Shown in pieces: positions 50,407 to 58,198 of a DNA stretch of 64,000 nucleotides. The stretch is taken from the NCBI RefSeq assembly GCF_013388255.1, contig NZ_CP058215.1, forward strand, positions 2,161,332 through 2,225,331, written 5' to 3'. Under the pieces are notes generated by a model that was not told the origin of the DNA, made no database searches, and saw only the letters and a list, made by a program, of their open reading frames with translations. This DNA is from Methanolobus zinderi. Lineage in GTDB: Archaea > Halobacteriota > Methanosarcinia > Methanosarcinales > Methanosarcinaceae. The position numbers and the translations under genes are program-made. Numbering within the stretch: position 1 is the stretch's first letter; each line of letters opens with the position of its first letter.

Positions 50407-51699
50407 ATGCGAATAGTTCAGGTGCTTATCCCAAATGGAAAACGGGAGCCAGTACTGGCTGTACTTGACGAAGAAGAAATCGATTATGCGGTATGGGAAG
50501 AAACAGGAAGAGGAGATTTTGAAGCCCTTGTACAGTTCCCCATTCCTCCCATTGGTGTTGAACCCATATTTGAGAAACTGCTGGAGGCAGGTATAAGCAA
50601 AGATACCTATGCTGTAGTTTATTCTCCTGAGACAGTTGTTTCTTCCCGCCTGGGTAAATTGCAAAAAAAATACTCGGGCAAACGTATTGCCAGGGAGGAG
50701 CTAATTGCGCGTGCAGAAGATCTTGCACCTGCCACCTCGACATTCTTTGCATTCCTTATTCTGAGTACTATTATTGCTACCGGAGGACTGCTTCTCGACT
50801 CGGCCGCAACAATTATCGGAGCCATGGTAGTTGCCCCGCTTATGGGACCTGCAGTGTCCGCCAGTGTAGGAACAATCCTTGACTTAAGAAAGCTCGCATC
50901 CAGAGGCGTTATACTGCAGGTTACCGGCCTTCTGGCTGCAATCGCAACCGCCGCGATCATCGGTTACCTCGTTCAGCAGACTATACTTGTACCAGCCGGA
51001 CTGGATATCCGTGAGATCCCCCAGGTCGCCGAACGTACAAGCCCGAACTTCCTGTCCCTTTTCCTTGCCCTTGGTTCAGGACTTGCCGGAGCCATAAGCA
51101 TCATGCGCGGTTCCGGATCAACACTGGTAGGAGTTGCAATTGCAGTTGCACTCGTTCCACCTGCGGCGACCGCCGGACTTGGGATTGCCTGGGGCCTGCC
51201 AGGAGTGGCACTTACTGCATCTGTACTGGTACTGGTAAACCTGCTTGCTATCAATGTATCCGCACTTGCCCTTTTCTGGATCTCGGGGTTCAGGCCCATG
51301 GAGGAAACTGCAGTCGGTCGTGCTCGTAAAGCTGTGATCGGACGTGCGGTCATCCTTTTGATCGCCATTGCTATCCTTTCTATTGTACTCGCACTTGTCA
51401 CATATTCCACCTACGAAACATCCCTGGTCCAGGAACAGATCCAACAGGAAGTACAGAACATGTATGATGAATCCGGGTGGGCTGAAGAGGGAGTGATACT
51501 TGTAAGTACAAATGTAGAGTATGAACCTGCAGACCTTCTGCTGGGTGATCCTCCCACGGCTTCCGTACTGATAGGCTATCAGGCAGGGCAGACCATACCA
51601 CCCGACATTGCCCAAAGGGTCGATGATCGTCTCAAGGATACTATTGGGATGGATGTCGTCGTAAGGGTTGGATTCATCGAATCGCAACAGGCTGCCTGA
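50407..51699 (+). CDS. DUF389/TIGR00341 family membrane protein, copy 1
   Basis: The 430-residue protein has an N-terminal soluble domain (MRIVQVLIPNGKREPVLAVL, about 1-110), roughly seven membrane spans starting near residue 113 (FFAFLILSTIIATGGLLLDSAATIIGA) with conserved GAMVVAPLMGP and VPPAATAGLGIAWG segments, and a C-terminal soluble domain of about 100 residues. The function of the family is unknown. It is a near copy of the next gene. Confidence 0.93.
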   Translation: MRIVQVLIPNGKREPVLAVLDEEEIDYAVWEETGRGDFEALVQFPIPPIGVEPIFEKLLEAGISKDTYAVVYSPETVVSSRLGKLQKKYSGKRIAREELIARAEDLAPATSTFFAFLILSTIIATGGLLLDSAATIIGAMVVAPLMGPAVSASVGTILDLRKLASRGVILQVTGLLAAIATAAIIGYLVQQTILVPAGLDIREIPQVAERTSPNFLSLFLALGSGLAGAISIMRGSGSTLVGVAIAVALVPPAATAGLGIAWGLPGVALTASVLVLVNLLAINVSALALFWISGFRPMEETAVGRARKAVIGRAVILLIAIAILSIVLALVTYSTYETSLVQEQIQQEVQNMYDESGWAEEGVILVSTNVEYEPADLLLGDPPTASVLIGYQAGQTIPPDIAQRVDDRLKDTIGMDVVVRVGFIESQQAA

Positions 51700-51808: not shown

Positions 51809-53101
51809 ATGCGAGTAGTTCAAGTACTAATCCCAAATGGAAAACGAGAGCCAGTGCTGGCCGTGCTTGACGAAGAAGAAATCGATTACGCGGTATGGGA
51901 AGAAACAGGAAGAGGAAATTTTGAAGCCCTTGTGCAGTTTCCGATCCCTCCGATAGGTGTTGAACCTATAATGGAGAAACTGCGAGATGCAGGTATAAGC
52001 AAGGACTCCTATGCAATAGTTTTCTCTCCTGAGCTCGTGGTTTCTGAAAGGATCGGAGCGTTGCAAAAGCGCTTCTCAGGCAAACGGATCGCCAGGGAAG
52101 AACTCATTGCGCGCGCTGAAGAACTTGCACCTGCTACCTCGACATTCTTTGCATTCCTTATCCTGAGCACCGTTATTGCTACCGGAGGGCTGCTACTCGA
52201 CTCGGCTGCGACAATTATTGGAGCCATGGTGGTTGCCCCGCTTATGGGGCCGGCCATCTCTGCAAGTGTAGGAACGGTACTTGACTACAGAAAACTTGCA
52301 TCAAGAGGAGTGATATTACAGGTTACCGGCCTTCTTGCTGCAATCGCAACCGCCGCTATCATCGGATATATTGTACAGCAGACCACACTTGTAGCTCCTG
52401 GACTTGATATTCGCACTATACCACAGATCGCCGAGCGTACGAGTCCTAACTTCCTGTCCCTTTTCCTTGCTCTTGGTTCCGGACTTGCAGGTGGTATCAG
52501 TATCATGCGTGGTGCAGGATCAGCACTCGTAGGAGTTGCTATTGCTGTTGCACTTGTTCCGCCTGCAGCGACCGCAGGACTTGGAATTGCATGGGGCCTG
52601 ACTGGAGTTACACTCACCGCAGGTGTGCTCGTACTTGTGAACCTGCTTGCAATCAATGTATCTGCACTTGTCCTTTTCTGGATCTCGGGTTTCAGGCCTA
52701 TGGAGAAAACTGCGATTGGTCGTGCACGTATATCTGTAATAGTACGTGTAGGTGTTCTTGTGGTTGCCATTGCTGTACTTTCTATTGTGCTTGCAGTGGT
52801 CACATATACCTCTTACCAGAGCACACTGTTTCAAGAAGAGATGAAGCAGGAGATAGAGACTATGTATGAGGAAACGGGTTATGCTGACCAGGGGGTTCTC
52901 CTTCTCGATACAACAATTGACTACACACCTACAGACTTTTTGCTAAATTATCCTCCCGAGGTTTCCATAATCATAGGTTACCGGGAAGGACAGGACATCC
53001 CTCCCGATGTTGCCACCCAGGTTGATGAACGTCTGAAAGAGAATACAGGTCTGAATCCTGTTGTAACTGTTGAGTTCATTCAATCACAGCAATCCGCCTG
53101 A
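51809..53101 (+). CDS. DUF389/TIGR00341 family membrane protein, copy 2
   Basis: It has the same length (430 aa) and layout as the preceding gene, almost identical in the first 100 residues and in the membrane core, and diverging most in the C-terminal soluble domain after about residue 335. AAGAAGGTG lies 7 bp before the ATG. The pair arose by tandem duplication and the two proteins could form a hetero-oligomer; this is inference. Confidence 0.93.
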   Translation: MRVVQVLIPNGKREPVLAVLDEEEIDYAVWEETGRGNFEALVQFPIPPIGVEPIMEKLRDAGISKDSYAIVFSPELVVSERIGALQKRFSGKRIAREELIARAEELAPATSTFFAFLILSTVIATGGLLLDSAATIIGAMVVAPLMGPAISASVGTVLDYRKLASRGVILQVTGLLAAIATAAIIGYIVQQTTLVAPGLDIRTIPQIAERTSPNFLSLFLALGSGLAGGISIMRGAGSALVGVAIAVALVPPAATAGLGIAWGLTGVTLTAGVLVLVNLLAINVSALVLFWISGFRPMEKTAIGRARISVIVRVGVLVVAIAVLSIVLAVVTYTSYQSTLFQEEMKQEIETMYEETGYADQGVLLLDTTIDYTPTDFLLNYPPEVSIIIGYREGQDIPPDVATQVDERLKENTGLNPVVTVEFIQSQQSA

Positions 53102-54182: not shown

Positions 54183-55442
54183 ATGAGGGAATTCATCGAA
54201 AAACTCAAAGAGAACGGGAAGCTTGTTGAGATCAAAGATCCCGTGTCAAAGGTGTTTGAAGCTCCGAAGATTGCAAAACAGACCAATGCTCCTGTACTTT
54301 TTCACGATATAGATGGCAACAGGGCAATCATGAATGTCCTGGGTTCCAGAGACGAGCTCGCAGCAATGCTTGGCGTGGAAAAAGATATGATCATACAGAG
54401 ACTCTCGGAAATAAATCCTGAGGGTGAAGTCTTACTGGTTGAGGATTCTCCCACAAAGGAAGTTGTGAAAACAGACGTAGACCTGAACAAACTCCCCATA
54501 ATGACGCATTTTGAAAGGGACGGCGGACCCTACATCACCGCAGGCGTGGTAGTTACCGAATATGATGGTGTCATGAATGCGGCAATCCACAGGATGCTTG
54601 TGGTCGATAAGAACAGGATTGCTGCAAGGCTTGTGGCTCCAAGGCATACCTATGTGCTGCACAAAAAAGCTGCTGAGAAAGGAGAAAAACTGCCAGTAGC
54701 AATCGTTCTCGGTGCAGACCCGGCAGTCACCTACGCCTCCACAACAAGAGTACCTGCAGGCAAGGAATTCAACTACGCTGCAGCGCTCAGGGGCAAGCCT
54801 GTCGAACTGTTCGAATGCAGCAACGGTATAAAGGTTCCGCATGCAGAGATAGTCCTTGAAGGATATATTGACCCAGAAGAGCGGGTTGATGAAGGTCCTT
54901 TTGTGGATATTACCGGCACATACGACCATGTGAGACAGGAACCTGTGATACACATCACAAAGATACTGCACCGCAAGGATCCAATCTACCACGGCATACT
55001 TCCTGCCGGACCCGAACACCTTCTGATGATGGGAGTACCGTATGAGCCAAGGATCTACAAGGCAGTAAGTGAGGTAACCACTGTAAAGAATGTAGTACTC
55101 ACAGAAGGCGGCTGCTGTTACCTGCATGCTGTAGTCCAGATCGAGAAACAGACAGAAGGCGACGGGAAGAATGCAATCATGGCGGCATTTGCCAGCCACA
55201 CCAGCCTCAAACATGTGGTCGTGGTCGACGAGGATATCGACATTTTCGATATGCAGGATCTGGAATTTGCAATTGCTACAAGGGTAAAGGGTGACATGGA
55301 TATCATGATAATACCCAATGTCCGCGGAAGTTCCCTTGACCCAAGAGGATCACCGGACGGAACCACCACAAAGGTCGGGATCGATGCGACAAAGGTGCTG
55401 GCAGAGGCAGAGAATTTCGAAAGGGCGAAAATGCCCGAATGA
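54183..55442 (+). CDS. UbiD-family decarboxylase, trans-anhydromevalonate 5-phosphate decarboxylase
   Basis: The 419-residue prenylated-FMN enzyme has the UbiD catalytic region [17 protein letters not shown] (about residues 231-247) and metal/prFMN-binding NAAIHRMLV segment. Its placement 35 bp before the AcnX large-subunit gene identifies it, by established archaeal mevalonate-pathway gene clustering, as the decarboxylase that converts trans-anhydromevalonate 5-phosphate to isopentenyl phosphate. A UbiX partner must be elsewhere. TATA-like CCATATACC lies about 25 bp upstream. Confidence 0.93.
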
Positions 55443-55477
55443 ACTGAAATTGATAATTTAACTGATACGGGATTCCA

Positions 55478-56674
55478 ATGTATCTTACAAAGGAAGAAGA
55501 AAAGACCCTTGAAGGGGAGTACGGTGAGACACTCCGCAAGGCCATAGAAATACTTGTGGCACTCGGGGATATATACGGGGCCGACAGTCTGATACCCATA
55601 AAAAGCGCCCAGATAGCCGGGGTATCCTACAAGACCATCGGAGACGCAGGACTTGAGTGGATATCCGACCTTGAAGGAAAGGTAAAGGTCCCCGCGATAC
55701 TCAATCCTGCGGGTATGGATATGCTGCGATGGGAAGAGATGGGAATAGAGCCTGATTTTGCCAGGAAGCAGCAAGAGATCATAGATGCCTACGAAAGTCT
55801 TGGCATCAGAACAAAATGTACCTGCACTCCCTATTATCTGGAAGGTTTTGATGCGAAGTTGGGAGACCACCTTGCATGGAGTGAATCATCTGCGGTATCC
55901 TATGCCAACTCTGTAATCGGAGCAAGAACAAATAGGGAAGGCGGACCTTCCGCACTCTCTGCTGCACTCGTAGGAAAGACCGCAAACTACGGATACCATC
56001 TTGATGAGATGCGCAAGCCTGTTGTCGCAGTTACCGTTGATTGTGAACTGTCTGGATCAGACTATGGTGCACTGGGTTATGTGGCCGGAAAATCTATAGG
56101 CAGTCGTGTACCGATATTTTACATGCAAAACAAACCCTCAAATGATGAGCTAAAAACACTTGGTGCAGCCCTCGCAGCATCCGGTGCTGTTGCACTGTAC
56201 CATGTGGAAGGAGTTACACCAGAAGCTATCCGGTCAAATTTTGAAAGACCTGACGAGAACATAATAATCGAAAAGCAGCAGATTGCAGATGTCTATGAAG
56301 CCTCGGCAGAATTCACAGAAGGAGGACTTGACACCGATATAATCACCGTCGGTTGTCCTCACTGCTCACCTGAGGAACTGGAGACCATAGCAAGAATGCT
56401 TGAAGGCAAGAGCATACAGAAAGAGATGTGGGTATGTACCTCAAGAGAGGTAGCAGAGAAGTGTGTCGGACATGTAAAAGCCATCGAAAAAAGCGGAGCC
56501 AAGGTTGTCTGTGACACATGCATGGTCGTATCCCCCGCTTCAAACAACTACAAGGCAATGATGGTTAATTCCGGAAAGGCACTGGCATACGTTCCGAGCA
56601 TGTGCAGAGTTGCTTCACGATATGGAAGTATCGAGCAGTGTATCAGAGAGGCAGGTGTTGTCGATGAGAATTAA
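55478..56674 (+). CDS. Phosphomevalonate dehydratase large subunit (AcnX type)
   Basis: The 398-residue protein is the iron-sulfur subunit of the aconitase-X family enzyme that dehydrates (R)-5-phosphomevalonate. Cysteines in TKCTCTP, VGCPHCS, CDTCMV and SMCRVAS are candidate cluster ligands, and [19 protein letters not shown] is a family-typical segment. The small-subunit gene overlaps its end by 11 bp, as expected for a two-subunit enzyme. Confidence 0.94.
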
Positions 56675-57065
56675 ATGCAGAAGCATTTCAAGAGGTACTG
56701 CCGAAGGCGAGGTACTCCTCACCCATGATTCCATCTCATTCCTTGGTAATGTAGATCCGAAGACCGGAGAAATAGTGGAACCAGAGCATGAGCTTTTTGG
56801 CCAGTGCATTAAGGACAAAGTCCTGGTCTTCCCACATGGAAAGGGTTCGACCGTAGGTTCATATGTACTCTACCAGCTTATCAAAAACGAGGTCGCACCT
56901 GCTGCCATGATCAATATCGAATCTGAGCCCATAGTTGCGGTCGGCGCTATTATTTCCGGCATTCCTCTGGTTGATAAGATGGAGAAGGATCCTTTTGAGG
57001 TACTTAAGAACGGCGACCATGTGAAGGTTGACGCTGCTTCCGGGTTCGTGGAAACTGAGATTTGA
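56664..57065 (+). CDS. Phosphomevalonate dehydratase small subunit (AcnX swivel domain)
   Basis: The 133-residue swivelling domain has [36 protein letters not shown] with the catalytic serine, and [15 protein letters not shown]. Start at ATG 56664 inside the end of the large-subunit gene; a longer frame begins at 56610 but would lengthen the overlap and is not family-like. The gene overlaps the radical SAM gene by 4 bp (TTGA). Confidence 0.93.
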
Positions 57066-58198
57066 GTGCTATTACATATTTAAACTTAGATATGGATATC
57101 AATTTTCGCTGGAACAGGAAGAATTCCTACAGTCTTGCCGCACTTGCACCGCTTCTCCCGGATGCACGAATGGCAAAAAAGCCCGAGAATGGCCTGATGG
57201 TCTACAGTTTTGCATCCAGACAGAAAGATACCGTATTCAGGGAAGTGGAAAACGCAAGCACTGATTCTGTCTTCATAGCTGGCGGACCTCATCCCTCCGG
57301 TGCACCTGAGGAAACACTTCGCTATTTTGATTATGTGGTCATCGGAGAGGGTGAAGAGACATTACCGGAGCTGGTGAGAACACTAAAAAACGGTGACGAT
57401 GTCAGCAAGGTCAGAGGAATCGCATACAAGAATAATTCAGGCGATATTATCTTTACAGAAGCCAGAAACCCCGTAAATCTTGACAATTATCCCTGTTTTG
57501 ATCCGGCAAGAGCCATGGCACCACTGGAGATAAGCCGGGGCTGTCCTTTCAGGTGCAAGTATTGCCAGACACCACGGCTTTTCGGAGGAAAGGTCAGGCA
57601 CAGGAGCATCGATTCAGTCGTCAGGTATGCACAGTATTACAGCGACCTCAGGTTCACATCTTCCAATGCACTTGCGTATGGAAGTGACGGGGTTCGTCCG
57701 CGATTGGACAAAGTGGAGAAACTGCTTTCAACCCTTCGTAAGCTGGAAGATAAGAAAATATATTTCGGGACATTTCCTTCAGAGGTCAGGCCTGAATTCA
57801 TTACCGAAGAATCCATCGAACTGATCACAAAATATTGTGATAACACAAAACTGAATATGGGAGCACAATCAGGCAGTGACCGGATCCTGAAAGAGATACG
57901 AAGGGGACACAGTACAGAAGATAGTCTGAGGGGCATAGAAATCTGTTTTGAACACGGAATTGTCCCGGTTGTCGATTTTATCGTGGGATCCCCGGATGAG
58001 ACCGAAGAGGAACAGGAAATGAGTCTTGAGATGATAAAGTGGATTTGTAAAAAAGGAGGGAAGGTACATGCACACTACCTTACACCCCTTCCGGGAACAC
58101 CTTATGAAAATACTCAACCTTCCACTGTCAGCAGCCGTTTTAAGAAAGTGCTCGGAAAGATGGCACTGGAAGGTAAGGCTACCGGCTCATGGGAATAA
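57062..58198 (+). CDS. B12-binding-like/radical SAM protein (MJ1487-type)
   Basis: The 378-residue protein has an N-terminal cobalamin-binding-like region with [14 protein letters not shown] (about 71-84) and [12 protein letters not shown], then the radical SAM motif CPFRCKYC (C161, C165, C168), and later [14 protein letters not shown]. The start is TTG at 57062, overlapping the stop of the AcnX small subunit, so it is translationally coupled to the mevalonate operon. Substrate is unknown; methylation or another radical step on an isoprenoid or tRNA is possible. Confidence 0.9.

Follow-up and report, generated by a model that had tools for sequence, protein, structure and literature searches.

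A mevalonate-branch gene set followed by a radical SAM gene

We analyzed a 64,000-nt stretch of the Methanolobus zinderi genome (referred to here as the window), in which four genes lie on one strand at positions 54183 to 58198, in the order UbiD, AcnX large subunit, AcnX small subunit, and radical SAM protein. The features are as follows.

54183 to 55442, plus strand: UbiD-family decarboxylase, candidate trans-anhydromevalonate phosphate decarboxylase (TIGR00148, 469.2 bits, cut-off 244.85; PF01977, PF20695, and PF20696)
55478 to 56674, plus strand: AcnX large subunit (phosphomevalonate dehydratase, type II; PF04412, 526.8 bits, cut-off 31.5)
56664 to 57065, plus strand: AcnX small (swivel) subunit, start ATG at 56664 read from the sequence (NF003046, 200.2 bits, cut-off 163; PF01989)
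57066 to 57091, no strand: gap of 26 nt from the AcnX small-subunit stop to the conserved radical SAM start (from the alignment of starts)
57092 to 58198, plus strand: TIGR04013 radical SAM protein (491.4 bits, cut-off 251; predicted model; fold match to MgmA)

The UbiD and AcnX large genes are separated by 35 nt, and the reading frames of the two AcnX subunits overlap by 11 nt. The first-pass annotation had described four genes with small gaps or overlaps at this place, and all of them were located there, with matches far above curated cut-offs. It had also assigned the first three genes to the trans-anhydromevalonate branch, in agreement with the families that they match. The AcnX subunits are encoded separately and both exceed their family cut-offs (i.e., type II AcnX), while UbiD family membership combined with adjacency to AcnX marks the first gene as a putative UbiD-type anhydromevalonate phosphate decarboxylase. 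By sequence, all three are unremarkable representatives of the families of the archaeal mevalonate branch. As regards the archaeal phosphomevalonate dehydratase (AcnX type II) and the UbiD-type decarboxylase, both subunits and the decarboxylase are adjacent here, and their activity is predicted.

A TTGA overlap had been proposed to join the radical SAM gene to the AcnX small-subunit gene and to couple their translation. This overlap needs a start at TTG 57062. Most of 18 aligned relatives have their first residue at the equivalent of ATG 57092, and in-frame stops occur directly 5' of that ATG in several Methanolobus and Methanosarcina loci. TTG 57062 is therefore probably not the start, and these observations do not support the proposed coupling. 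The AcnX small-subunit stop and the radical SAM start are thus likely separated by the 26-nt gap listed above, a spacing that is still operon-like. In other lineages, the two frames overlap by 4 nt according to longest-ORF mapping (L061, L069, and L174).

A gene for a FilR1-type winged-helix regulator (PF08350; 58228 to 59007) lies in convergent orientation 29 nt past the radical SAM stop, so that an operon, if one exists, ends at the radical SAM gene. We infer co-transcription of the four genes; a scan for sigma-70 promoters and terminators gave no more matches than in shuffled sequence. Elsewhere in the window, two tandem 430-aa ORFs with very similar sequences (50407 to 51699 and 51809 to 53101), apparently encoding membrane proteins, lie just 5' of an ABC ATPase gene.

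Family, predicted fold, and conserved residues of the radical SAM protein

The fourth gene product matched TIGR04013 (B12_SAM_MJ_1487) over the full length of the profile (positions 1 to 382). NCBIfam catalogs this family as a hypothetical equivalog ("hypoth_equivalog"), so the window protein is a full-length member of a family that itself has no function assigned, as had been noted for this gene in the first-pass annotation. We found no function for TIGR04013 or MJ1487 in the open-licence PubMed Central literature, and no relevant report of an AcnX operon with a radical SAM gene in the same literature, including PMC12622379. The second-best family score was that of MgmA (TIGR04014, 115.6 bits), which is below the cut-off of 360 and places the protein outside that family. 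The nearest named relative is from a Methanolobus (94% identity).

The AlphaFold model (mean pLDDT, 95.5; pTM, 0.90) comprises a cobalamin-binding-like Rossmann domain at the N terminus (approximately residues 1 to 125) followed by a radical SAM core. The best match among solved folds was MgmA, the methyl-coenzyme M reductase glutamine C-methyltransferase (9ccb; Z, 34.1; rmsd, 2.8; 350 of 368 residues; 23% identity), followed by CysS (Z, 27.5), AprD4 (27.0), MiaB (25.9), OxsB (25.6), and TsrM (25.2). The Rossmann domain before the radical SAM barrel in the model, with fold matches to MgmA, OxsB, TsrM, and CysS, agrees with the Rossmann type of cobalamin-dependent radical SAM enzymes. AprD4 and MiaB are not known to use cobalamin, and because the Rossmann-radical SAM fold also fits these two, cobalamin use is only predicted. 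At the profile level, TIGR04013 matched 9ccb with an E value of 5.8e-39, and its positions 1 to 98 matched the 128-residue chain 4q37, which we take to be the N-terminal domain of the bacterial protein TM0182 from Thermotoga maritima. TM0182 is described as a cobalamin-dependent radical SAM enzyme, with a domain structure without bound cobalamin, in a review (PMC13331322).

The CX3CX2C cluster motif (C151, C155, and C158) was present in 128 of 129 sequences, and H273, H328, D295, E231, R233, and Q259 were invariant in all 129, including a protein from the actinomycete Nonomuraea gerenzanensis. The same domain order and fold are shared with MgmA over 350 residues; however, H273 and H328 are not shared with MgmA in the pairwise alignment, and these two histidines are candidate substrate-binding residues. 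The DxHxxG motif occurred in none of the 129 sequences, and known radical SAM members likewise lack a histidine ligand, according to the same review (PMC13331322). In MgmA, Gln49 is given as the nearest candidate lower ligand (PMC11796369); assuming a 20-residue tag offset, it aligns with Ala41 of the window protein. Of the 54 Methanomicrobiales-type proteins, 52 have Asn at this position, and most of the other proteins carry a small residue there. OxsB is reported to use an Asn from the loop that follows strand 3 (PMC13331322), and this may be the same loop as that of the Ala41 position.

Distribution of TIGR04013 and its distance from AcnX

We surveyed 294 genomes of the window's phylum, with presence defined as a score above the family cut-off. 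TIGR04013 was present in 118 genomes and AcnX in 236, and all 118 TIGR04013 genomes had AcnX (106 by coordinates and 12 by genome table). Among the 106 genomes with listed coordinates, AcnX large lay within 10 kb of the TIGR04013 gene in 42, namely, all 39 from the window's family, 2 from its order, and 1 distant genome (G149). The first-pass annotation had made its reading depend on this linkage recurring in other genomes, and in this neighborhood survey it does.

AcnX small lay within 2.6 kb of the TIGR04013 gene more often (85 of 118 genomes). Using family labels assigned from matches to named records and from the radical SAM tree, these comprised f1 (39/39), f2 (2/2), f4 (5/7; the other 2 on other contigs), and f27 (1/1), as well as 38 of 54 genomes in six Methanomicrobiales-type families (f13, 14/19; f16, 9/9; f22, 3/3; f23, 6/6; f24, 6/6; f5, 0/11). 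The remaining 33 genomes belonged to f3 (10), f5 (11), f11 (4), f31 (1), f13 (5), and f4 (2), a count that includes one f3 and one f5 genome with no listed AcnX small coordinate and two f13 genomes limited by contig ends. Methanoperedens-type loci (L107 to L113 and L117) had no AcnX within the 13-kb stretch. In Methanomicrobiales-type genomes, UbiD and AcnX large are found together elsewhere (L162, L175, L197 to L199, and L203 to L206), and AcnX small stays by the radical SAM gene. The split subunits of one enzyme are thus encoded apart in these genomes.

In the radical SAM tree (proteins of 300 to 560 aa, duplicates removed), four groups were each recovered as a single clade, as expected of vertical descent: Methanomicrobiales-type (54 sequences), Methanosarcinaceae (36), Methanotrichaceae-type (15), and Methanocella-type (4). 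Support for the deep branches was weak (0.28 to 0.67). Two sequences labelled "Bog38" (L126 and L127) grouped with two labelled as Methanoperedens type, apart from the other Bog38 sequences. A protein with 56% identity to the archaeal enzyme is encoded on a 3-kb contig labelled as a Flavobacteriales bacterium (L106), which is probably a mis-binned archaeal contig. The TIGR04013 cut-off was exceeded in 3 of 14 named control genomes, the third of which is, judging from the NCBI family description, presumably Thermotoga maritima.

A mixed gene block around the enzyme

The neighbors of the radical SAM gene are varied. In Methanosarcina, Methanococcoides, Methanohalophilus, f2, and f4, an M50 protease gene separates AcnX small from the radical SAM gene; it also follows AcnX small where the radical SAM gene sits elsewhere (L164 and L200) and in AcnX large-AcnX small-M50 loci without a radical SAM gene (L184, L185, L186, L193, L212, and L213). 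In 24 of 40 loci (approximately 15 kb each), the next gene 3' of the radical SAM gene encodes a calcineurin-like phosphoesterase, often followed by CYTH and FKBP genes, and in Methanoculleus-type loci it is kept by the radical SAM gene although AcnX small is elsewhere. Longer versions run AcnX large-AcnX small-M50-radical SAM-phosphoesterase-FKBP (L060, L063, L124, and L125) or, in Methanomicrobiales-type loci, AcnX small-(c18 or SPASM)-radical SAM-phosphoesterase-CYTH-FKBP. The same neighbors occur without a TIGR04013 gene, as UbiD-AcnX large-AcnX small-phosphoesterase-CYTH-FKBP in L178 and, lacking UbiD, in L195. Adenine deaminase lies directly 5' of the TIGR04013 gene in 5 of 5 Methanotrichaceae-type 15-kb loci (L051:5147-6889, L039, L042, L062, and L064).

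Within the window's own family, two genomes (G022 and G251; loci L157 and L158) have kept UbiD-AcnX large-AcnX small-M50 and lack the radical SAM gene. From these two genomes and the mixed neighbors, we conclude that the branch can do without the enzyme and that the block forms no obvious functional set. A search of the window's own genome for M50, run without a positive control, gave no match; its phosphoesterase gene (45% identity) is far from the locus, with neither CYTH nor FKBP beside it.

A second radical SAM gene of the SPASM type (TIGR04084) lies between AcnX small and TIGR04013 in some Methanomicrobiales-type genomes (L055:5845-6969, L050, L066, L070, L133, L149, and L173). A different, AhbD-like radical SAM gene occupies this place in L072 (G149).

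Candidate roles of the TIGR04013 enzyme

Taken as a whole, we regard it as rather probable that the fourth gene encodes a cobalamin-dependent radical SAM methyltransferase that acts on a shared, probably protein, substrate and is carried in an inherited mixed block. In the proposed reaction, base-off cobalamin in the Rossmann domain would be methylated by SAM, cleavage of a second SAM at the [4Fe-4S] cluster would yield the 5'-deoxyadenosyl radical, and this radical would activate a C-H bond, to which the methyl group would go. The substrate would probably be a protein or other broadly shared molecule rather than an intermediate found only in archaeal isoprenoid synthesis. The Nonomuraea protein (436.4 bits, above the TIGR04013 cut-off) shares the invariant residues; a profile scan of its locus (L155) found no AcnX-like gene within 10 kb. 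It is thus likely that archaea and actinomycetes have the substrate in common. In AcnX searches, the Nonomuraea record was not among the matches listed (60 rows of 132 and of 160 records). The ancestral block may have consisted of UbiD, AcnX large, AcnX small, M50 protease, radical SAM, phosphoesterase, CYTH, and FKBP genes, of which different lineages would have lost different members, with Methanolobus trimmed to the four genes of the window.

The function in isoprenoid or lipid modification that the first-pass annotation proposed for the linked genes draws on three observations: AcnX large lies close to the enzyme gene in all 39 Methanosarcinaceae-type members, the mapped loci have the two on one strand, and every genome with the enzyme has AcnX. 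Nevertheless, 118 of the 236 AcnX-positive genomes have no TIGR04013 member above the cut-off, the operon persists without the enzyme in L157 and L158, unrelated genes share the block, and the invariant residues extend to an actinobacterial protein with no AcnX nearby; we thus consider an enzyme dedicated to such modification improbable. It is also unlikely that the enzyme modifies or matures a branch enzyme (e.g., by C-methylating AcnX small, as MgmA does methyl-coenzyme M reductase). AcnX small lies within 2.6 kb of the enzyme in 85 of 118 genomes, including 38 of 54 Methanomicrobiales-type genomes whose AcnX large moved off; its retention after the subunit split speaks most strongly for a functional link, and the closest fold is that of a protein methylase. 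In an alignment of AcnX small, however, no column tracked the presence of the enzyme. In a signature test (a column conserved in at least 85% of sequences with the enzyme and at most 35% without it; L001, L002 to L031, L106, L153 to L156, and identical sequences excluded), the number of passing columns was 0 for AcnX small (86 sequences with the enzyme and 26 without), 2 for AcnX large (59 and 23), 3 for UbiD (47 and 11), and 7 for M50 (31 and 9); because the test ignores phylogeny, only the negative for AcnX small is informative. Position 135 of AcnX large (Ser in 54 of 59 with the enzyme; Ala in 18 of 23 without) was not among the changes listed for the two enzyme-free relatives. Moreover, enzyme-free genomes retain AcnX, and the Nonomuraea member has none within 10 kb. 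That cobalamin-dependent C-methylation of AcnX, most likely of its small subunit, tunes a key step of archaeal isoprenoid synthesis is more doubtful again; were it true, it would explain why AcnX small stayed with the enzyme when the large subunit left, and we know of no earlier case in which archaeal isoprenoid synthesis is controlled in this way.

It is equally unlikely that the substrate is a methanogenesis protein, be it methyl-coenzyme M reductase, as for MgmA, or another. Beyond the nearest fold being MgmA, 112 of the 118 enzyme-bearing genomes have McrA and 4 of the 6 others an McrB match, but the enzyme was absent from 46 of 158 McrA-positive genomes, a family member occurs in Nonomuraea, and G149 (100% complete) has the enzyme and neither McrA nor McrB. 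A second such genome, G054, is 61% complete. The methanogenesis link is about as loose as the AcnX link. The block-inheritance reading has its own difficulty in that the persistence of AcnX small beside the enzyme in Methanomicrobiales-type genomes exceeds the expectation of pure inertia, which counts against it. The arrangement is real and well conserved; on balance, the enzyme is more likely a methylase that acts on a protein or another shared substrate and is carried in an inherited block than an enzyme with an isoprenoid function.

The pairing of the radical SAM gene with the AcnX genes is real and old. TIGR04013 is a widespread methanogen family with a fold close to that of the enzyme that modifies methyl-coenzyme M reductase, and its position in a mevalonate block is a testable lead. 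The genomes that separate the explanations are two relatives that have the operon without the gene and one that has the gene without methyl-coenzyme M reductase.
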